A DNA stretch of 26,242 nt from a virus: positions 1 through 26,242 of IMG/VR virus record IMGVR_UViG_3300032286_000447, one strand, 5' to 3'. The notes under the pieces are model-generated. The model was not told the origin of the DNA, searched no databases, and worked only from the letters and a program-made list of their open reading frames with translations. Position numbers and translations under genes: made by a program. How positions within the stretch are numbered: position 1 is the first letter of the stretch; each line of letters starts with the position of its first letter. Positions 5,410 to 26,242 of the stretch are shown piece by piece.

Positions 5410-6063
5410 CTATATATCCTTAGTAAAATAAACTCTTTTGCCATTGACGATTTTCCAACTTTTTCCTTTATTATACCCCATATTACTAGCATTGGCTCGT
5501 ATCCGTTCAGCACGTTTTTTTTCTGCTTCTAATAATTTAGGTGTTTTTGTTTTCTTTTTACCTATCATTCCTAATCTTGCTTTTTCTTTCCTTTCAAGTG
5601 TATAACTGTCGGGCTTACATGCACTTAGTTTCATTCGGTGGGTTTTTTCTTCAGGAGAATATGAAGACCATAATTCTTTTTGAGTGTTTCTTATCTTTTC
5701 AATACTATCATCAGTATGCTTTAACAACCAATTAGGGTGTCCAATTAACTTTTCAGATAAGCGTTTATATCCTTCTTCTCCTAATCCACCCCCATGCCCA
5801 GATTCTGGTCTCATATTAGCCCAATTAGTACTATCAACTACATTCCATAGGGAAGAGTAATAACGACCCATTTGTTCAATTAGCATAGGATCAGTGGTTT
5901 CTAATAATATATAAGTATCTACATTATATCCATATTGTTTGATATGATCCTTCCATTGTTTGCCGGATCCTTTATATCTGTACGGATTTTTAGCCTTAGT
6001 TTGACCTAAATAATTTAGACCAGTGACCTTGTGGGTTTTTTTATATAAAAAATATGTAGTCAT
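5410..6063 (-). CDS. GIY-YIG homing endonuclease (Seg-like)
   Basis: A 217-aa free-standing homing endonuclease. The N-terminal GIY-YIG nuclease domain is seen as YFLYKKTHKVTGLNYLGQTK at residues 4-23 (YFLY and YLG for GIY and YIG), the RYKGSGKQW block with likely catalytic Arg29, and a LIEQMGRYY segment with likely catalytic Glu63. The basic C-terminal half (HTDDSIEKIRNTQKELW, then KARLGMIGKKKTKTP) resembles DNA-binding NUMOD-type helices. It sits between the gp4-like and gp16-like genes with 12-base and 2-base gaps, typical of an intergenic insertion. No good ribosome site precedes the ATG; instead an octamer ACTAAATA (6069-6076) ends exactly 5 bases before it, the same spacing as at the other endonuclease genes here. 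Confidence 0.85.
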   Translation of the reverse strand: MTTYFLYKKTHKVTGLNYLGQTKAKNPYRYKGSGKQWKDHIKQYGYNVDTYILLETTDPMLIEQMGRYYSSLWNVVDSTNWANMRPESGHGGGLGEEGYKRLSEKLIGHPNWLLKHTDDSIEKIRNTQKELWSSYSPEEKTHRMKLSACKPDSYTLERKEKARLGMIGKKKTKTPKLLEAEKKRAERIRANASNMGYNKGKSWKIVNGKRVYFTKDI

Positions 6064-6068
6064 ACTTT

Positions 6069-6076
6069 TATTTAGT
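6069..6076 (-). promoter_or_regulatory. Weak late promoter-like octamer before GIY-YIG gene
   Basis: ACTAAATA on the minus strand, 6 of 8 matches to TATAAATA, separated by 5 bases from the ATG at 6063. Weak alone; notable because the spacing matches that at 12502-12509 and 18197-18204. Confidence 0.35.
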
Positions 6077-6513
6077 TAGGTTTGGTTACCATTTCTAAAT
6101 AAATCCTTTTCTGTAATTACTCTAAAAGTATATCCTTGACTTTTACAATATCCCATGGCTGCGGCCCATTTAGCATGATTTATAGCAACAATCATTCTAT
6201 CTTTTGCAGTAGCTGCTTTGCTTTCTATGATACTTTGTTTTTGTGGTTTTATTTCTACAACTTCTGCTATTTTTTTGCCGAACTTATTTTCATAAACTAC
6301 AAAAAAATCAGGAACATAGATAGTTGGTTTACCTGTGAATGGGTGTTTATATGGAATTCTTAATGCTTCACTAGCCCAATACAATACATTATTATGAGTA
6401 TCACAAAATGTCATAAATGTGAGTTCCCATCCTGAGCGATATTTAGGAGTATGTTTTCCTATATACTTTTGAGGATTTTTAGGAGTATAAAAACCTTGTG
6501 CCCATTTTCCCAT
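6076..6513 (-). CDS. 4: Head completion protein (T4 gp4/gp50 family, nuclease fold)
   Basis: A 145-aa protein; T4 gp4 is 150 aa. It acts late in head maturation, after packaging, before tail joining. Family motifs are seen in order: KYRSGWELTFMTFCD (residues 24-38, with Glu30), LYWASEALRIPYKHP (44-58), YVPDFF (66-71, with Asp69) and VVEIKPQKQ (85-93, with Glu87 and Lys89). Asp69, Glu87 and Lys89 form the PD-(D/E)xK nuclease signature of a TnsA-like fold, so the protein may trim DNA ends or be a relic of such an enzyme. The ATG at 6513 lies next to the upstream stop (TGA at 6517-6515), suggesting coupled translation. The GIY-YIG gene directly downstream separates it from the gp16-like gene. 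Confidence 0.85.
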   Translation of the reverse strand: MGKWAQGFYTPKNPQKYIGKHTPKYRSGWELTFMTFCDTHNNVLYWASEALRIPYKHPFTGKPTIYVPDFFVVYENKFGKKIAEVVEIKPQKQSIIESKAATAKDRMIVAINHAKWAAAMGYCKSQGYTFRVITEKDLFRNGNQT

Positions 6514-8821: not shown

Positions 8822-11800
8822 TTATAGTGCTGCTAACTCACCTGTATTCAAAATACGAACCGGGATGTAGATGAATTCAGCTGCCTTAACAGGCTCAATC
8901 GCAACGTCTACCCAAAGCTCATTTCTATCAATTCTAGCAGGAGTGTTGTTTGATTCATCACATACTACCAGATAATCATAGATACCGCGTTTTGATTGTA
9001 AATCAAGCATCAACGATGTCACTACGTTTGCAATTTGACCTCTAGTAAATGAATCATTAGGTTCAAATACAAACGGTCTTGCTCCAATTGTCAATTGTCT
9101 ACGGATGTAAGCAATTAATCTTGCAACGTTAGTTCTATCCAATGCGCTTTGTGAGTCAAAGCTTGTTTTATTACCATAATTCAATAAACCATTACCGGTA
9201 AAGAATACTAATGGATTTATAAAATTAAGATACAACACATCACGAATCCCTATTCTAGTTTTACTAGTTTGAAATTCGCCGGTAGTTCTGTCTACATAAC
9301 CAATATTAGCTGCGTTGTCAATAACGCCCCTGCGTGTACCTGCTGCTGCTAACCAAGGATAAGCAATAGTATCATTGCGTAAGAAAGTACGCAGCATCAT
9401 ATGCGATGCAGGAACTGCCACTTCGTTACCAGATAAATCAAAAGCCAATCCACTTGGATAGAACAAACCTAAGAAGGTATTGCGTGTTACACACCCTTCT
9501 TCACCTGTGCTTGTCGCACCTGCCGCGTTTGTTGCCCATGCTTGAATATCAGTAGCACTATCAGGTAATCCTAATGGAGTATCACCTAGTATGTAGCCTG
9601 TTTCTCCACGATCAGCATTTAGTACGACCATATTAGGTTGTAATTCAGGATAATTAGGAGTAGCCATTAAGTTAAAGAAATTATCTTCGTCACGGATAGC
9701 TGGATTAGTATCAATTGCGGATCGTAATGATTCTACAACCATTGCTCTTTGAGCTTTTCTACCCATATATGGACTGCCGTTAGACTGTAAGCCACTTGCC
9801 GATACCCATGCATCCCGTTGAGTAGGTAATGATTGATCAGGGAAAGTGGTTGAGTTAAAATAATTAACTCTATATTGTTTAACATTATAACCTGAACGGC
9901 GTGTATTAAATAACAACATCCCTGTTGGATATAGACTTGAACTTGGTGCATCCAAATCTAAATAATTGCTAGATAATAAACTTACTATTGTTGGAATAGG
10001 ATCATCTGCTGGATTAGTATTATTATTAGTTGCCCAACGAGCATCTGCAAATACTATACCGGTATTATTAACTTGATCGGTATTATCTATTAATACCCAC
10101 ATGTTTTCACCATCAACTGATTGCCAACGGGAAATTACAGGATAATCTTCTAAATTACTAGTGTTTATCCATAAATCACCGTACACTAATGCGGTTCCGT
10201 CACTTTGTGTAGTTGGTTCGCTAGCACTTACTATTGGACCAGAAGGATCAGTAGTATTAGACCCAGTTGGGATCGGGAAACCATTGCTATCATAGTTAGT
10301 ATTCTTATAGCCTCTCCAACCAGATGAAGTGTTTATCATAATATCAACTTGATTTACTACACTGTAGAACCAATTTGTATTATTAGCAGGAGCCGCAACA
10401 GGTGCACCTTCGTTTGATGTATAAACAAATTCAACCCAGTTACTTAATTGGGTTGAAAAGTTTATAACAGGTGTGCCGGATACGTAAGCTACAGTAGATA
10501 AACTTCCTCCAGATCCTATTCCAGTCACTTTTAAGGTTAAATTATTTCCAGGAGTAGTTCCACCTAAATTTGCGCCTAAAATAGTAAGTGTATCACCCAC
10601 AATATAGCCGGATCCCTGTCCAGTCACAGCAAAAATATTTGAATACTCCCCTGAGATTATTGAAGCATTGATTTGACCATCTGCACCTGCACCACCCGTA
10701 ACTGCAACAGCATTAAATGAAGTATCTGCAAATGGTCCATATTTAACACAGGTGTCACCAATTGTAAACCCGGCCTCTGCTATTAATCCAGAAGATCTTC
10801 CTGTTGTAATATTTACGTCAGACATAACAATTGCACCACCTTCCGTATGAGTCAATTGTATTGCACCATCAGTTGTTACACTGGCAGTAGTATAATCAAT
10901 TCCAGCGGCTGCCCATGCAGTAACAAAATCTGTAGCATCAGTATTATCAGCTAAACGCATAGTATAAGGATCACTCAATTGTGTGATACCCGGAGAAGTA
11001 ACATATACGTATAAAGTATACGGTCCAGCTGTAAATGATGGACTAGAATTAGTACCAGTAACTACAGTAGGACCAGTAGCAAATCTTTCCCATAAATATA
11101 CAGGGCTAGCAGGTGCCTGATTATTAAAGTTGTACTGACCGTATATAGTTCCTGCAGGAATAGCCTGACCACCTGTAGCATCTAATGCTGCTATTGCTGC
11201 CCAGTCAGTAGGATACAAACTTACATTTTTATTAACCCAAGACGCAGTAACTGCATCATATTGAGAAACAATAGGTTGTAGCCCATTGCCGGCAGATCCA
11301 ACTTTCATCCATACTGAGCCGGTGGGTCTAGGATAGGTTTGTCCAGTTTGCCATAATGGTTGCTGTGCTGATGTTCCCCACTGTAAGGTCGGCGAATAAT
11401 AATCACCGGTGTCGATCCCCATATCGCTAAGTGGTGCACCAGTACCATCCGTCAATGTAATATATTGAGAATCAATTTCGTCAATGCCATTGAATGTAGA
11501 GCTTGTAAAAATACAAAGTTTGCCACTTCTTACACCGGCAGTTACATTAGTTAATCCTAAAGCATTTATAACACCTGCTACACCTGCAACAGTCCCGATA
11601 CCTCCTCCTGAGTTAGGAACTGTAATAGTAATATCAATTGAAGTGCTAGTAACAAGATTCTTTATAGTAAGGGTAAAAGTATTACCGGGAGCCAATGTTG
11701 GATTAGAAACAGTACCTTGTACAGTTGGCCAATCTTTTGACCAAGCTGATAATCCGACAGGTACCCAAGCATTGCCAGTGGTCTTATAAAAGAATTGTTC

Positions 11801-12391
11801 TTGCAATGGTCCGGTTAGTTGATTAGCTATTACTGCGTAGTCTCCAATATTACCGATACTATCAATGGGTGTATACGCACTTATATAAGCGTCATCGGTA
11901 ATAACAATAGGATTTTGTAATGTAAATTGTCCAGTTGTAGCATTAAACTGATATATACCCCAAGTTGAGGTTGTTGTATCTAACCACCATGCGCCATCTT
12001 CAGGTGCACCAACTGGTCGACCTGTTTGACCAACTAAACTAGCTAAATCAATATCTGCTCTTAATACATAACAACGATTAGTTACACCTAATAATGAGTA
12101 TGCTGCTAATAATCCATATTCGTTGAGTTCATAACCCTGAATAGGAGTACCTGCAGTTGTGGTGTAAAAGAACGGATTACCATATAATGTAACAAGATCA
12201 CGTTGGCTTGTTACTTGATATAATTTACCTGCATTTGCTGCTGTAGTAGCAACTGCTACTCCCGTACCAGTTGGATCAGCTTTATTTTGTGCTGTTGCTA
12301 CTAGTACGAAAGGTACGGAACCGGTTGCGGCTGGAAGATATTGACTTTGGTCAATGATTGAAACTTCAACGCCAGGACTTGTTAATGCCAT
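8822..12391 (-). CDS. 18: Tail sheath protein (T4 gp18-like) with very large insertion
   Basis: 1189 aa, against 659 in T4 gp18. The sheath contracts to drive the tube into the host. Residues 1-120 match sheath N-termini (MALTSPGVEVSIIDQS, FVLVATAQNKADPTG, YGLLAAYSLLGVTNRCYVLRADID). Residues from about 800 on match the conserved core (RRSGYNVKQYRVNYFN, LRSAIDTNPAIRDEDNFFNL, NADRGETGYILGD, RLIAYIRRQLTIGARPFVFE, VDVAIEPVKAAEFIYIPVRI), including the C-terminal strand that links subunits. Between them lie about 680 residues of beta-rich, Thr/Gly/Asn/Ser-rich sequence, including a GSGYIVGDTLTILG module near 588-640 and GDLWINTSNLEDYP-type linker modules. These should be outward-facing decoration domains. 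ATG at 12391 with AAGGA upstream; the first gene of its late unit. Confidence 0.92.
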   Translation of the reverse strand: MALTSPGVEVSIIDQSQYLPAATGSVPFVLVATAQNKADPTGTGVAVATTAANAGKLYQVTSQRDLVTLYGNPFFYTTTAGTPIQGYELNEYGLLAAYSLLGVTNRCYVLRADIDLASLVGQTGRPVGAPEDGAWWLDTTTSTWGIYQFNATTGQFTLQNPIVITDDAYISAYTPIDSIGNIGDYAVIANQLTGPLQEQFFYKTTGNAWVPVGLSAWSKDWPTVQGTVSNPTLAPGNTFTLTIKNLVTSTSIDITITVPNSGGGIGTVAGVAGVINALGLTNVTAGVRSGKLCIFTSSTFNGIDEIDSQYITLTDGTGAPLSDMGIDTGDYYSPTLQWGTSAQQPLWQTGQTYPRPTGSVWMKVGSAGNGLQPIVSQYDAVTASWVNKNVSLYPTDWAAIAALDATGGQAIPAGTIYGQYNFNNQAPASPVYLWERFATGPTVVTGTNSSPSFTAGPYTLYVYVTSPGITQLSDPYTMRLADNTDATDFVTAWAAAGIDYTTASVTTDGAIQLTHTEGGAIVMSDVNITTGRSSGLIAEAGFTIGDTCVKYGPFADTSFNAVAVTGGAGADGQINASIISGEYSNIFAVTGQGSGYIVGDTLTILGANLGGTTPGNNLTLKVTGIGSGGSLSTVAYVSGTPVINFSTQLSNWVEFVYTSNEGAPVAAPANNTNWFYSVVNQVDIMINTSSGWRGYKNTNYDSNGFPIPTGSNTTDPSGPIVSASEPTTQSDGTALVYGDLWINTSNLEDYPVISRWQSVDGENMWVLIDNTDQVNNTGIVFADARWATNNNTNPADDPIPTIVSLLSSNYLDLDAPSSSLYPTGMLLFNTRRSGYNVKQYRVNYFNSTTFPDQSLPTQRDAWVSASGLQSNGSPYMGRKAQRAMVVESLRSAIDTNPAIRDEDNFFNLMATPNYPELQPNMVVLNADRGETGYILGDTPLGLPDSATDIQAWATNAAGATSTGEEGCVTRNTFLGLFYPSGLAFDLSGNEVAVPASHMMLRTFLRNDTIAYPWLAAAGTRRGVIDNAANIGYVDRTTGEFQTSKTRIGIRDVLYLNFINPLVFFTGNGLLNYGNKTSFDSQSALDRTNVARLIAYIRRQLTIGARPFVFEPNDSFTRGQIANVVTSLMLDLQSKRGIYDYLVVCDESNNTPARIDRNELWVDVAIEPVKAAEFIYIPVRILNTGELAAL

Positions 12392-12868: not shown

Positions 12869-13492
12869 TTGAATTTTTTTATGTAAGTCATCTATTGTCC
12901 CATCATTAGCAATAATATGGTCATACTCTAATCCAACACTACTATATTCACTCGCATGAATACCTAATTGCTCAAGCCGATTCCTCCCAAGAGCCCAACC
13001 CAAATTACCGTTTTCACCTTTATTAAAGTTTATCGCATGTGAATACCACTCAGGGTTTGGACCCCTTTCAACTCTAATAGTAATTCCACCAGCATTTTTA
13101 ATAGCACCTACCTCATTGTAGAATCTACAATCTGTTATCACAATATTATCGGTAGAAGTTCTTAATTTGTTTTCTACTGATGCTACCCAAATATCCGTAT
13201 GAAATGCATCACGACAAACTTCTGTTCCCCAATATTGTAGAATCCAGCGTGGAGTAAGATGAGGGATACCTAAACGTTCTGCCCACCATTGATCAACCTG
13301 TTCACGCCATTCTCTGCTAGACTTAGTAGTGCCCTCTAGCATTTCACGATCCCAATTAAACACTGCTGCTACAGCATCTTTAAGAGAAGCGGCAAAACTT
13401 AATCTTTTAAAACCATGAAATGTAGTTAGATAATCTGCAATAGTGTCTTTGCCAGAATTTATTAACCCGGTAATTCCAATAATAATTTTCAT
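12851..13492 (-). CDS. 1: Deoxynucleoside monophosphate kinase (T4 gene 1 family)
   Basis: 213 aa. Phosphorylates dNMPs to dNDPs to feed phage DNA synthesis, in the cytoplasm. A P-loop GLINSGKDT is at residues 9-17 right after a beta strand; LSFAASLKDAVAAVF (about 31-45) corresponds to the substrate-lid start seen in T4 gp1; WILQYWGTEVCRDAF and IWVASVENKL, then NIVITDCRFYNEVGAIKNAGG (about 115-136) carry the Asp-x-Arg motif; IIANDGTIDDLHKKI closes the domain. T4 gp1 is 241 aa, so this is slightly short but complete. Its ATG overlaps the stop of the upstream HNH endonuclease (ATGA), so translation is probably coupled to it. The AAAGGAG just before the ATG is too close to act ideally. Confidence 0.85.
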   Translation of the reverse strand: MKIIIGITGLINSGKDTIADYLTTFHGFKRLSFAASLKDAVAAVFNWDREMLEGTTKSSREWREQVDQWWAERLGIPHLTPRWILQYWGTEVCRDAFHTDIWVASVENKLRTSTDNIVITDCRFYNEVGAIKNAGGITIRVERGPNPEWYSHAINFNKGENGNLGWALGRNRLEQLGIHASEYSSVGLEYDHIIANDGTIDDLHKKIQSIVNL

Positions 13493-14430
13493 TCTCCTTT
13501 ATGTTTACAATTTTCCCCGTGCCACCTTGAAAAATTCATGTGATCAACTTCTTTATCACAATAATAACATTTTAATTTAAGTGCAGCTAGTTTTTCGGCA
13601 CTTTTTTTCTTGCGCTGTTCATCAGTGTGCTTTTTACCAAAAAAACCATTTTTCTCTCCTACATTAGCAACTTTCTTTTTTAATTCCTGTGCTTTTTCTT
13701 CACCATATAATTCTTCAAATGTTTTTCCTTTATTGATCGGGATCTTACCTTTTCTATTTTTGGATGCACTTTTTTTCCATGCCTCTGATTTTGGTTTGGC
13801 TGCTAACTGCCTAAGCAATAATAATGTTTTTTCACTATGGTGCTTTTTATAGAATCCATTTTTCTCTCCTACATTAGCAACTTTCTTTTTTAATTCCTGT
13901 GCTTTTTCTTCACCATATAATTCTTCATATGTTTTCCCCTTTAGCCTATCACTAGCTCGCTTTTTATATCCATCTGTATGCTGCTTACCAAAAAATGGAT
14001 TATTGGATCCTAAATTTCTTTTTGATGCCCTTAATCTTTCCTCCTCAGTCCAAAAATTTTTAACAGTTTGTGAAAGCTCCTGCTGTAATAATTCATATTG
14101 TCTTCCGATCATTTTGTGATCAGTATATTTGGCTAAAATAACTTGTAGCCCATGAACCATCTTTGCCTTTGCCGTGCCTTGTGTCATTCTAATTAATAAT
14201 TTATGACATATTAAGTGAGCCCTTGGTGTAAGATAGGCAATATTGTCAATATCCTCAGGATCACCTGCAACCCATCCGAGTGGCCCTTTTCTAACACGAT
14301 TGATAAAAAATGATTCTGGAATTATGTGATGTCTATGTTTGGTAGTATGTTTAACTTTTGCGGAAGAATTACCAACTATGTTATAATACCATTTAGTGTA
14401 TTTGTTCTGTAGGAATATTTCTTGATTCAT
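13489..14430 (-). CDS. HNH homing endonuclease with NUMOD3 repeats
   Basis: 313 aa. The N-terminal HNH domain shows HRHHIIPESFF (32-42, His34-His35), Asn63 in DNIAYLTPRAHLICHKLL (62-79) and His72/His76. NUMOD3-type DNA-binding motifs follow: NPFFGKQHT, NGFYKKHHSE and NGFFGKKHTDEQ. A GKTYEELYGEEKAQELKKK segment occurs twice in a 70-codon register (see repeat). The C-terminus has a C-x2-C ... H-x3-C zinc-finger pattern (CYYC, then WHGENC). The gene lies between the hairpin after the cysteine-hydrolase-like gene and the dNMP kinase, whose start it overlaps. There is no clear ribosome site; CATAAGTA (14436-14443) ends 5 bases before the ATG. It probably nicks or cuts phage DNA to spread itself. 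Confidence 0.85.
   Translation of the reverse strand: MNQEIFLQNKYTKWYYNIVGNSSAKVKHTTKHRHHIIPESFFINRVRKGPLGWVAGDPEDIDNIAYLTPRAHLICHKLLIRMTQGTAKAKMVHGLQVILAKYTDHKMIGRQYELLQQELSQTVKNFWTEEERLRASKRNLGSNNPFFGKQHTDGYKKRASDRLKGKTYEELYGEEKAQELKKKVANVGEKNGFYKKHHSEKTLLLLRQLAAKPKSEAWKKSASKNRKGKIPINKGKTFEELYGEEKAQELKKKVANVGEKNGFFGKKHTDEQRKKKSAEKLAALKLKCYYCDKEVDHMNFSRWHGENCKHKGE
13646..13717. repeat. Direct repeat copy A inside HNH endonuclease
   Basis: A 72-base stretch identical to 13856-13927, offset exactly 210 bases (70 codons), so the reading frame is kept. Similarity goes on for about 8 more bases with one mismatch. Confidence 0.9.
13856..13927. repeat. Direct repeat copy B inside HNH endonuclease
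   Basis: Second copy of the 72-base identical repeat. Recombination between the copies would delete 70 codons in frame, removing one NUMOD3 unit. Confidence 0.9.
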
Positions 14431-22050: not shown

Positions 22051-23433
22051 TTATGCGTTATTAACTACAACGATTGGGTTAGGTTGTCCATCGTATGTAT
22101 TAGCAGCGTATGCTGTATCAAATGTTGCAATAACATCAGGATTAGCTGTAGTCAATATCGCAGTACCTGTTCCTGAACCAGTTGCAGTTGCAACGAATGA
22201 TACACCAGTTATGTTAGCAGAAGCACCGACTGCTGTCCAGTTTGTAGTACCTACACTAAGAATTGTGTAAGCTGTGCCGGCTGATAGTGACCCAGCAGCT
22301 ACAGTAGTTTCAAATAGTTCTGATTGATAATTATTTACTGACTGTACATATACTGTTGCAGGTGTTGCTGTTGTCGCTGTAATGCTCATTGTATTTGGTG
22401 TTAGTGCAGTATTAGCCACATTAGCAGTTGCACATTGTGCTGTTAATCCGGTTGTTAAACCTGTTACTAAATACTTTTGTTTGCCTTTTTGACGAACAAT
22501 GTAGCCTGCTTCATCATTTGCATAAACAAATGATGCACCTACAAAGTTTGCAGTAGCATTTGCAGCCAATACAGTTACATCGATTCTGGCATTTGCAGTA
22601 TCAGTACCTGTAGTTATTGCTGTTGTTGGACCATATTGTGTATTAGATACGGTGAATGCAGATGCATTTGCAATAGTTTTCACAAAGTATGTTGATCCTA
22701 TAACTAACCCACCTGTGTTTGCATCAACAGTTAATGGAGCACCAACAAACAATGTTTGTGAATTACCGGAAGTACGAATTACATTACCGGTAGCAGTTGT
22801 ATTAGCGATGGCAACAGTAATATAGCCAGTGTTAGTTCCAACAAAACCAACATTTGTATAATCAGTACTGCCGTTAATATTTGCAGAAGCAACTTGAATA
22901 GCAGAGCCAACAGATAATGTATTAGCAAAGTCTGTTCCAGATCCATATACATTCAAGTTACCTGTATCACCATAAAGTGTACCAGTACCATTAATACCAA
23001 TAGCAACTTGTGCTAATATTTGTGAACCATAAATTGTTGTATTACCGCCAACTACACCATAGCTTGCACCAGGATTTGTTGAAGTATTACCTGATTGTGA
23101 TGTAGAATCAGGATTTTGAAAACCCGTGTCTACTACACCGACCGATACCTTCACTGTCACTGGACCAGCAGTTGATAGGTTAACCTTAGTATAACTAGGA
23201 TTAGCACTAGGTACTGTAGCCGATACAGTAAAAGTATTAGCTGTTAGTACTTCTAGAATCCAATATGTTGTACCTGCTGTTAGTCCACCTGTTGTAGTAG
23301 TAACTACAAAAGGCATTCCTGCGATAACATTAAGTGTATTTAAATTTTCACTAACTGTAACAACTTCAGTTGTACCGTTTGTTGCGGTTAATGTTAACAT
23401 TACCGCTTTGGCAATCTTTAAAGGGCGTCCCAT
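22051..23433 (-). CDS. 460-aa Thr/Ala/Val-rich virion structural protein
   Basis: Not a named family. Begins MGRPLKIAKA, a start I recall from environmental phage structural proteins. The body is nearly all beta-type sequence rich in Thr, Ala, Val, Asn and Gly, with repeated modules of the form GLTAGTTYWILEVLTANTFT (about 49-68) and GLVIGSTYFVKTIANASAFT (about 240-260), that is G-L-x-x-G-[ST]-T-Y then T-A-x-x-F-T-V, plus GSLSAGTAYTILSVGTTNWT near the end. A GTGTLYGDTGNLNVYGSGT block resembles the module in the 185-aa neighbour. A short KQKGKQKYLV element lies near 315-323. Likely a decoration, head-fibre or tail-surface protein. ATG at 23433 has AAGGAG upstream and a structured 78-base leader. 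Confidence 0.6.
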   Translation of the reverse strand: MGRPLKIAKAVMLTLTATNGTTEVVTVSENLNTLNVIAGMPFVVTTTTGGLTAGTTYWILEVLTANTFTVSATVPSANPSYTKVNLSTAGPVTVKVSVGVVDTGFQNPDSTSQSGNTSTNPGASYGVVGGNTTIYGSQILAQVAIGINGTGTLYGDTGNLNVYGSGTDFANTLSVGSAIQVASANINGSTDYTNVGFVGTNTGYITVAIANTTATGNVIRTSGNSQTLFVGAPLTVDANTGGLVIGSTYFVKTIANASAFTVSNTQYGPTTAITTGTDTANARIDVTVLAANATANFVGASFVYANDEAGYIVRQKGKQKYLVTGLTTGLTAQCATANVANTALTPNTMSITATTATPATVYVQSVNNYQSELFETTVAAGSLSAGTAYTILSVGTTNWTAVGASANITGVSFVATATGSGTGTAILTTANPDVIATFDTAYAANTYDGQPNPIVVVNNA

Positions 23434-23538: not shown

Positions 23539-24096
23539 TTAGTTGTTAGGTCCGCCGGCTGATGGCGTTGTTAAAACACCACTAGTGCCTGTATTAGCAT
23601 GTGCAGCACCCAATTCCGTAATAGTAAATGGTGCAGATGTTACGCCGCTTACTTCCACAAAAGATACTATATTTCCTTGACCTACAATAATACTATTTGC
23701 AACCGTATTAGAAGGAATAATTGTACTATTGGCAGTAGCCACAGTGTAGGCAACGCCATATGGGTTATATCTAGCTGTTGCTCCACTAATTGCTACTGCT
23801 GCATTTGCAGTTAATGTTAAACTTGTATTATTAGCAATTGCTTTAACAATCCCAACAGTATTGCCGCTAGTATTACCTATCCAAGCTCCAATATTTAATT
23901 GAGTAGTAAATGCAGTTCCTGAACCGGTGACTGTATTACTATTAGTAGCACAGGTCACAGTTCCAGTTAATGCGACATTTGGAAAACTAGTCGTATATTG
24001 AATAGGACTACTAGTAGTTGATATCATGACTTTATCTGTAGAGATATTTCCTGATGTTGCTACTGCTGAACTTGCGGTATATGCGTATGATGCCAT
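23539..24096 (-). CDS. 185-aa Thr/Ala/Ser-rich virion structural protein
   Basis: Not a named family. Begins MASYAYTASSAVATSGNIST. The centre (about 43-110) is a beta-module of the type GTVTCATNSNTVTGSGTAFT, then LNIGAWIGN, VGIVKAIANNTSLTLTANAA, of the general form G-T-V ... V-T-G-S-G-T-x-F ... G ... I ... T-S-L-T-L, seen in phage fibre and decoration proteins. The C-terminus is flexible and Gly/Pro-rich. It has one Cys and almost no charge. ATG at 24096 follows a GATAAATA promoter by 20 bases, with an AGGA ribosome site. It lies between a fibre gene and the 460-aa structural gene, suggesting a small surface or fibre-associated protein. Confidence 0.6.
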   Translation of the reverse strand: MASYAYTASSAVATSGNISTDKVMISTTSSPIQYTTSFPNVALTGTVTCATNSNTVTGSGTAFTTQLNIGAWIGNTSGNTVGIVKAIANNTSLTLTANAAVAISGATARYNPYGVAYTVATANSTIIPSNTVANSIIVGQGNIVSFVEVSGVTSAPFTITELGAAHANTGTSGVLTTPSAGGPNN

Positions 24097-24123: not shown

Positions 24124-26242
24124 TTATAGTCTACCCACAGCGATTTCAATGATACCTTCGCCTGAGAAGTTTTCTAATGCCTTACCAATTACTGTACCTA
24201 TAATAGGAGTATGAGTAGGGCGTGCATAACCATTTCCACCACTTACCATCATATCGCCTTTGTGAATTATACCTCTTACTTTACAAGGAACTCTACCTTG
24301 TAATGCTATAGGAAGTGCTATACCTTGACAAGTTGCATTCATTACATATGCAGGATTAGATGATACTACCCCTGCTACTTTTATTGTTTCATCAGTAGCT
24401 ATAGTAACTTCTTTATCTCCACCAAACTCTAACACAGTACCCGGTTCATATTCAGTGTCCGCTTCGTAGTATTCTGCCAAGTCAGCATATGTGGCATTTA
24501 ATCTAGAACCTGCACTTAAAGACCAGTTGCCTGTAATTGTTCCTGTTGTTGAATTTGCACCGGTTGTTAAAATTGTAGTATTAACAACTCCGGTTGAAAA
24601 ATTACTAATAAAGTATCTAATTACATTATTGCTACCACCATTTGCTACATAAACAAATCTACCCGTGGGGTCTACTGTTATACCTACCGGATTAGATCCA
24701 CTAGGAATTGCAGTTGTAATACTAGTTAATCCACCGATTGATTGGTTAATACTAAATTGGCTTACGGAGTTAGCACCACCATTTGTTACATAAACAAATC
24801 TACCAGTGGGGTCTACTGTTATGTCATTTGGAGTACTTATAGTAGAAACTGGACTTGTAATACTAGTTAATTCGCCAGTTGATTGATTAATACTAAATTG
24901 GCTTACGGTGTTGCCACCACTATTTGTTACATAAACAAATCTACCTGTGGGGTCTACAGTTACCTTTATTGGACTAAGTCCTCCAGTAGGAATCGCAGTT
25001 GTAATACTAGTTAATGCGCCAGTTGATTGGTTAATACTAAATTGGCTTACTGAATTGCCACCACCATTTGCTACATAAACAAATCTACCGGTGGGGTCTA
25101 CCGTTATTCCTCTAGGAGTATTTCCACTATTAATTGGACTTGTAATACTAGTTAATGCGCCAGTTGATTGGTTAATACTAAATTGGCTTACTGTATTGCT
25201 AGTACCATTTGTTACATAAACAAATCTACCTGTAGGGTCTACTGCTATACCTGTCGGATTAATTCCTCCAGTAGAAACTGGACTTGTAATACTAGTTAAT
25301 CCACCGATTGATTGGTTAATACTATATTGGCTTACATTTCCACTATCAAAATTTGCTACATAAACAAATCTACCTGTGGGGTCTACAGCTATTCCTCGAG
25401 GAGCAGTTCCACTAGTAATTGCAATTGCAATACTCGTTAATTCGCCAGTTGATTGATTAATACTAAATTGGCTTACGGAGTTGGCACCATTATTTGTTAC
25501 ATAAACAAATCTACCCGATGGATCTACTGTCGTGTAATACGGACTAGATTCGGTAGAAGCAGTAGTCGAAGTACTAACCAATGCACCCGTACCTGAATTT
25601 ATTATTCTTTCGGGTACTACTGTAGGATAAGGACTCTGTAAAAATTTTCCATATAATACATTGCCACTTATTGAATTAGCACCCAATAAATTACCTGATA
25701 AATTACCTAATATAGTACCTGCAAAAGTTACATTACCGGCAAGATAACTATTACCTGATGCTACAAATAACGAATATGGGTTAGTAATCGTAGCATTTGT
25801 ATTAGCAACTGGTGCACCTGCAATATAAAAGGTAGATGCATTAGTAAATGTAACGGTTGCATTTGCTGCCGCTAAGTTCGGCGCTGCTATTGCGTGTATT
25901 GCTGCATTAGCTATAGTCGCACTGGCTGCGGCTGAATTGTCCGTATATGTAGAGAATATTGCACGGATACCCAAATTACCTGTTATAGTTGATACATTAG
26001 CATTACCCGTGGCATTGCCTGATGCCGTATGGTTGTTTGCAATTATTGTGTTACCATTAACAGTAGTAATATTACCAGTTGTCGCAATTAATGTTGTTGT
26101 ACCTAAGTTGTTTACATTAGCATTACCACTAATATTTGCTGTACCAGTGATGTTAGCACCAGTACCAGTAATAGTCATGGTTGTATTACCAACTGCTGTA
26201 ATAGTTACATTACCATTTGCTGTTGGAATGTTAACATTGCTA
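24124..26242 (-). CDS. Tail fibre with YVTN beta-propeller and conserved C-terminal domain (N-terminus beyond window)
   Basis: Partial CDS: the frame is open from the right edge to the stop at 24124, so an internal Met at 26178 is not the true start. At least 706 residues are seen. The N-terminal visible part has Asn/Ile/Thr/Gly repeats (ITGTANISGNANVNNLG), like those in the collagen-like fibre. Seven repeats of about 47 residues follow, each with D-P-[TS]-G-R-F-V-Y-V-[TA]-N and VSQFSINQS, the YVTN-type blade of lactonase-like beta-propellers; seven make a closed ring. The last 125 residues (YADLAEYYEADTEYEPGTVL, VAGVVSSNPAYVMN, LQGRVPCKVRG, KGDMMVSGGNGYARP, IIEIAVGRL) form a C-terminal domain common on environmental phage fibres, similar to Peptidase_G2-type chaperone domains. 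Probable receptor-binding fibre; an enzyme role for the propeller is unproven. Confidence 0.82.
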   Translation of the reverse strand, partial: SNVNIPTANGNVTITAVGNTTMTITGTGANITGTANISGNANVNNLGTTTLIATTGNITTVNGNTIIANNHTASGNATGNANVSTITGNLGIRAIFSTYTDNSAAASATIANAAIHAIAAPNLAAANATVTFTNASTFYIAGAPVANTNATITNPYSLFVASGNSYLAGNVTFAGTILGNLSGNLLGANSISGNVLYGKFLQSPYPTVVPERIINSGTGALVSTSTTASTESSPYYTTVDPSGRFVYVTNNGANSVSQFSINQSTGELTSIAIAITSGTAPRGIAVDPTGRFVYVANFDSGNVSQYSINQSIGGLTSITSPVSTGGINPTGIAVDPTGRFVYVTNGTSNTVSQFSINQSTGALTSITSPINSGNTPRGITVDPTGRFVYVANGGGNSVSQFSINQSTGALTSITTAIPTGGLSPIKVTVDPTGRFVYVTNSGGNTVSQFSINQSTGELTSITSPVSTISTPNDITVDPTGRFVYVTNGGANSVSQFSINQSIGGLTSITTAIPSGSNPVGITVDPTGRFVYVANGGSNNVIRYFISNFSTGVVNTTILTTGANSTTGTITGNWSLSAGSRLNATYADLAEYYEADTEYEPGTVLEFGGDKEVTIATDETIKVAGVVSSNPAYVMNATCQGIALPIALQGRVPCKVRGIIHKGDMMVSGGNGYARPTHTPIIGTVIGKALENFSGEGIIEIAVGRL
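24600..25560 (-). repeat. Seven tandem beta-propeller repeats, about 141 bases each
   Basis: The core encoding GRFVYV recurs near 24655, 24795, 24937, 25080, 25225, 25366 and 25508, 140-146 bases apart, with high DNA identity between units. The first unit (near 25508) has DPSGRF and the last ends in VIRYFISNFS in place of VSQFSINQS, marking the ends of the propeller. Confidence 0.88.

Follow-up and report, generated by a model that had tools for sequence, protein, structure and literature searches.

The window analysed here is the whole of an IMG/VR viral fragment of 26,242 bases, which carries a cluster of contractile-tail genes encoding tail tubes, a sheath, a sheath stabiliser, and a head-closure protein. 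Encoded in the same tail gene cluster is a tail-fibre gene that contains a seven-bladed β-propeller, referred to here as the ring (Table 1). The nearest relatives of the sheath are those of the jumbo phages Phosso, PA5oct-like phages, and Atu_ph07 (42 to 45% identity). The sheath is made up of 1189 aa (8822-12391, minus strand) and aligns with known sheaths over only about 60% of its extent, apparently owing to large insertions. Another tail protein rich in repeats (3-1790, minus) is collagen-like (Collagen, E=6.8e-53); its long repeats read Ser-Gly-Thr/Ser-Gly-Tyr-Thr-Gly, and its 3' end is cut by the contig edge. A putative homing endonuclease with NUMOD3 (13489-14430, minus) is flanked by a deoxynucleotide monophosphate kinase gene and further genes of the tail cluster. 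A 217-aa protein (5410-6063, minus) appears GIY-YIG endonuclease-like by eye, with no Pfam match at 0.001, and the head-closure family protein (6076-6513, minus) contains a TnsA-like endonuclease domain (phrog_218, PF08722). Downstream of the fibre gene are two Thr/Asn/Ala-rich proteins (22051-23433 and 23539-24096, both minus), each of which is also carried by relatives of the locus; the latter has a weak tail-fibre PHROG match and the former has no match.

The 5' end of the fibre gene is cut by the contig edge, so its own N-terminus lies off the contig and is visible in the orthologues. Five relatives (L004, L005, L006, L008, and L009) have the gene at the same locus, followed by the same downstream genes. 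Their full-length products are 927 aa from the ATG in L004, L005, and L008, 889 aa in L006, and 1584 aa from the ATG in L009, and all five share the N-terminus MAIIQISK(I/L)QQRSGNIVDLPQLDEAEFGWA (start sequence MAIIQISKIQQRSGNIVDLPQLDEAEFGWATDSKQLYIGK). These orthologues, together with the contractile-tail neighbours, bear out the original prediction that the ring sits in a tail-fibre gene between a shaft and a conserved C-terminal domain. As to the fibre-type N-terminus on which that prediction depended, an N-terminal region and a shaft are present in the full-length orthologues, but the N-terminal part matches no curated fibre family. An AlphaFold2 (AF2) model of all 705 visible residues did not resolve the shaft or the C-terminal domain, where pLDDT stayed under 50, and the shaft had no confident monomer fold.

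Table 1. Features of the tail-fibre gene and its seven-bladed ring, in window coordinates.
Feature	Position	Strand	Basis
Tail-fibre gene, last on the contig, 705 aa seen	24124-26241	minus	open frame, full-length orthologues
Shaft segment, repetitive, Asn/Thr/Gly/Ala-rich	25627-26241	minus	present in ring-less alleles too
Exchanged segment	24577-25740	minus	DNA homology with ring-less L004, L005, and L008 ends at both edges
Neck linker FLQSPYPTVVPERI into the ring	25588-25641	minus	alignment; recurs in relatives, e.g., KSPYPIVAP, QSNYSVVSP
Ring, closed seven-bladed YVTN/Lactonase-type β-propeller including N-terminal velcro strand	24601-25590	minus	Pfam, AF2, Foldseek/VIA
Blade 1	25411-25551	minus	motif repeats
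Blade 2	25267-25410	minus	motif repeats
Blade 3	25126-25266	minus	motif repeats
Blade 4	24982-25125	minus	motif repeats
Blade 5	24841-24981	minus	motif repeats
Blade 6	24700-24840	minus	motif repeats
Blade 7, closing	24607-24699 (24559-24699 as motif repeat)	minus	motif repeats, AF2; positional orthologue of blade 7 in L009b and L011
Conserved fibre C-terminal domain (~145 aa), Peptidase_G2-like	24127-24570	minus	identity in relatives, profile scores
YADLAE motif	24472-24489	minus	unchanged throughout the family and in genes of PA5oct-like phages and Atu_ph07

The C-terminal domain is 89 to 93% identical to that of the window in L004, L006, L009, and L011 and 56% identical in L017; in the comparison of ring-less alleles, the values are 85% for L004 and L005 and 94% for L006. 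It is a domain common to annotated fibres: it matches phrog_19602, "tail fiber protein" (E=4.3e-10), and homologous C-terminal ends are found in genes of PA5oct-like phages, Atu_ph07, and CP220-like phages. In the PA5oct-like phage PAC2, the gene with the matching domain is annotated as a baseplate wedge/tail pin. The Peptidase_G2 model (PF11962) scores 21.5 bits in the window and 30.7 bits in L017 against a cut-off of 25, and a PDB profile search with the domain returned nothing significant. Peptidase_G2 is presumably a self-cleaving intramolecular chaperone, as the family name implies. If the C-terminal domain were such a chaperone, the matured fibre would have the ring at its tip, which we treat as a lead and not as a result. 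The YADLAE motif is a candidate site of assembly or processing.

The ring is defined by exactly seven copies of DP[ST]GRFVYV in the fibre gene (residues ~219-547), at spacings of 47, 48, 47, 48, 47, and 47 aa, and Tandem Repeats Finder independently returned a repeat with a period of 141 nt between 24629 and 25530 (score 990). The seven-bladed Pfam family Lactonase (PF10282) matches it with 205.4 bits (E=1.8e-60) against a curated cut-off of 21.7, and NHL and related propeller models also match. The seven blades of about 47 residues that had first been noted are thereby confirmed, but calling them near-identical was too strong, as they are 49 to 81% identical to each other in protein and 61 to 86% in DNA. 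An AF2 model of the ring, built with 28 related viral rings, contains 28 strands (seven times four) and is closed by velcro with a pLDDT of ~97, in agreement with the closed seven-blade ring that had been expected. The ring does occupy the span originally assigned to it, 24600 to 25560, but reaches slightly further, to about 25590, because an N-terminal strand (residues 221-229 of the visible protein) completes the last blade. An extra eighth blade in some blade searches is read as this N-terminal closing half-blade; motif counts give seven, or fewer where the motif is degenerate. The nearest solved folds (Foldseek/VIA) are the YVTN S-layer protein 1l0q and the 6-phosphogluconolactonases 6nau/1ri6, and seven-blade rings, including designer rings, match the window ring structurally at Z 38 to 41.

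Variation in the ring is concentrated in its loops. Among close relatives, the mean column entropy is below 1 bit in all segments except the D-A and B-C loops, where it reaches 1.7 to 1.9 bits, as anticipated from the hypervariable loops of the original prediction. By established propeller topology, these two loops share one face of the propeller when the four strands of a blade are antiparallel. The core has a dN/dS of ~0.1-0.2 in most comparisons, rising to 0.5 for L011 by position. Loop values span about 0.7 to 2.1 over all comparisons, with ~1.6-2.1 for window pairs compared by blade position and ~1.1 by nearest blade, where the interval of 0.83 to 1.67 spans 1. As the nearest-blade value is not convincingly above 1, relaxed constraint is possible, and diversifying selection on the loops is suggested by the sequences but not proven. 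Positive selection was accordingly not accepted. As to a diversity-generating retroelement, no reverse transcriptase (RVT_1) match came up in the 21 related viral records, all of which are linear and many of which are fragments.

The ring is a modular part of the fibre, and close relatives have none, one, or two. There is no ring at the same locus in L004, L005, L008, or L006, and these ring-less alleles have additional shaft where the ring would sit. The shaft of the window is 80 to 82% identical in protein to those of L004, L005, and L008, and DNA homology to these three (blastn) runs from 26242 to 25740 at 85 to 86%, breaks, and resumes at 24576, so that the gap encloses exactly the ring. 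No Lactonase match was found in the 200-kb record behind L004. Two complete rings are present in the single 1584-aa fibre of L009 and at least parts of two in L010 and L011, and L002, L010, and L011 represent partial or other ring alleles. A second ring could also lie beyond the contig edge in the fibre of the window. The ring had been described as a fibre head, which is the wrong word, since a conserved domain of ~145 aa follows it in all alleles and a fibre may hold two rings; it is an internal bead. The presence of none, one, or two rings among close relatives suggests that these phages swap rings to change what they stick to.

A scan of viral contigs with the ring alignment returned 35 loci on ~30 contigs, and in these other contigs the ring is found in fibre-like genes with different ends. 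The view that such a propeller is unusual in a phage fibre is not supported by this search, and the ring had already been annotated as "Lactonase"/"COG3391" and placed in phrog_19989. The kinds of C-terminal domain beside the rings are Gp53-like, Peptidase_S74, Gly-rich, and Peptidase_G2-like, and the neighbours at the loci looked at include tail-fibre, sheath-stabiliser, virion structural, portal, terminase, or endolysin genes. Blade arrays almost always come in multiples of seven (7, 2x7, 3x7, and 4x7), which supports closed seven-blade rings. Most arrays contain one ring, those of L003 and L009 contain two, that of L027 three, and those of L025 and L028 four; the exceptions to the rule of seven are a split 3+4 array in L040 and one ring in L033 with only six detectable blades. 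The four-ring arrays belong to fibre-like genes of 1790 aa (L025:3160-8529) and 1918 aa (L028:3619-9372), in which the consecutive seven-blade rings are joined by a conserved linker, GSSITYGA...NNLLPPPTFHGGTG. On a 62-kb contig, about five seven-blade rings extend across two adjacent genes (L045:5197-11776). Among cultured phages, tblastn with the ring gave only weak matches of at most 29% identity, several of them to records that lack annotation or may derive from a host. The open-access literature yielded no account of YVTN rings as swappable parts of phage fibres, which is no proof that none exists.

It had been proposed that the blades were amplified recently, perhaps after this phage lineage captured a bacterial YVTN gene. 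Such proteins are common in bacteria, and blades 1 to 6 of the window are mostly nearest one another, which would fit a recent amplification. However, the bacterial relatives (from Variovorax, Rhizobacter, Geothrix, and others) form rings of 7 or 14 blades that are at most 49% identical to that of the window, compared with ~70% for its phage relatives, and in two trees a branch separates 29 phage modules, taken together, from the bacterial rings. The support for this branch, 87 and 94, is not starred, so a single phage origin is neither shown nor rejected. Blade 7 of the window is closest to the blade in the same position in L009b and L011, and nearly every intact relative, in different phages, already has seven blades per ring. 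Synonymous distances are 0.18-0.56 among blades 1 to 6 and 0.66-1.0 from these to blade 7, compared with 0.4-0.5 between phages over core codons. The prevalence of seven blades and the blade distances together are better fitted by an old ring, the inner blades of which were probably homogenised or shuffled, and we regard recent amplification following bacterial capture as very improbable.

For the function of the ring, we favour, as probable, a fibre with an exchangeable YVTN-type bead that acts as the receptor-contact module of a trimer. The phage would be a large myovirus and a distant relative of the jumbo phages PA5oct, Atu_ph07, and Phosso, and the gene would encode one of its tail or baseplate fibres, with the seven-bladed ring as an exchangeable bead between the repetitive shaft and the conserved C-terminal domain. 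The fibre is likely a trimer in which three rings would surround the axis, like the propeller platform of the phi11 receptor-binding protein. Contact with a glycan or protein on the host surface would be made through the face that carries the D-A and B-C loops, and a change in the loops, or the swap, loss, or doubling of a ring, may alter adsorption and host range. The ring sequence, its confident predicted fold, its modularity, its quantisation in sevens, the bias of variation to its loops, and its tail-gene context are observations on which this reading builds, and that the loops set receptor choice is plausible. Propellers in the receptor-binding proteins of phi11, PRD1 (P2), and phiKZ (gp131C) make this a known kind of part (PMC4901313). 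As the ring is internal and not at the tip, it could instead be a spacer, a structural stiffener that sets the reach and stability of a long fibre and whose loops vary because they are unconstrained. The tandem rings of some fibres (4x7 in L025 and L028), the extra shaft of ring-less alleles, and a loop dN/dS near 1 are consistent with this role, but nothing in such a role would call for a closed seven-blade ring that varies on one face only. Here the loops vary between blades, with strong conservation on the opposite face; we therefore think a spacer unlikely. An enzymatic role on the host envelope, as a lactonase or in polysaccharide modification, seems very unlikely to us, even though Lactonase is the best Pfam family, the fold is near the 6-phosphogluconolactonases 6nau/1ri6, and fibres of eCIS have been reported with lactonase domains (PMC12923769). 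Of the 347 residues in the ring region, none is His, Cys, or Trp, just 4 are Glu, and 1 is Lys. This composition argues against a lactonase-type enzyme, and the near seven-fold sequence symmetry of the ring would leave little room for a unique catalytic pocket.

The receptor-contact bead can be extended to a broader proposal, which we offer tentatively and with more doubt than belief. YVTN rings may be mobile receptor-binding cassettes of environmental tailed phages, which would acquire and lose them, double them, or line up four in a row on fibres whose N- and C-termini are unrelated. Shuffling and gene conversion, with no diversity-generating retroelement involved, would diversify one face a blade at a time, and the ring may come to lie at the tip once a C-terminal chaperone has removed itself. 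A seven-fold repeat with one conserved and one variable face could obtain diversity by blade-by-blade recombination, no retroelement being seen. Should the ring govern adsorption, the presence of none, one, or two rings at one locus amounts to a natural experiment in host-range change, and phrog_19989, now of unknown function, would gain one.

That family matches the ring with E=4.3e-21, and two UniProt entries from uncultured Caudovirales phage, A0A6J5SZJ1 and A0A6J5R6I7, have the same ring by sequence; A0A6J5SZJ1 also has the same fold (TM-score 0.93, 1.3 Å). Both are annotated by domain only, as COG3391 or "Lactonase, 7-bladed beta propeller," and the searches made found no allele comparison or fibre role for them or for phrog_19989. 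The best sequence relative of known structure is the archaeal S-layer YVTN propeller 1L0Q (E=4.9e-27), which has the same fold (Z 38.8, 31% identity) but belongs to a cell-surface layer protein with PKD domains and not to a phage. Bacterial YVTN proteins mostly have a signal-peptide or lipobox-like start in place of fibre parts (by eye) and fall on a separate side of the tree. The fibres of eCIS resemble that of the window in having propeller/lactonase modules in phage-tail-derived fibres, but eCIS are not phages and their propellers are joined to collagen-like shafts (PMC12923769). In gp45 of Staphylococcus phage phi11, a stem is followed by a propeller platform and then by C-terminal domains (PMC4901313). 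Like the window ring, this propeller has four-stranded blades and velcro closure and is internal in the chain; it differs in having five blades, an α-helical stem, and a proposed GlcNAc pocket (PMC4901313). Neither phi11 gp45 nor phiKZ gp131C had a sequence match to the window ring in the PDB search. The phiKZ protein (4GBF) forms a seven-bladed propeller at the periphery of the baseplate and has been proposed to be a receptor-binding domain or an enzyme (PMC4901313, PMC6115969), but its propeller is a C-terminal domain, whereas that of the window is an internal, swappable bead.
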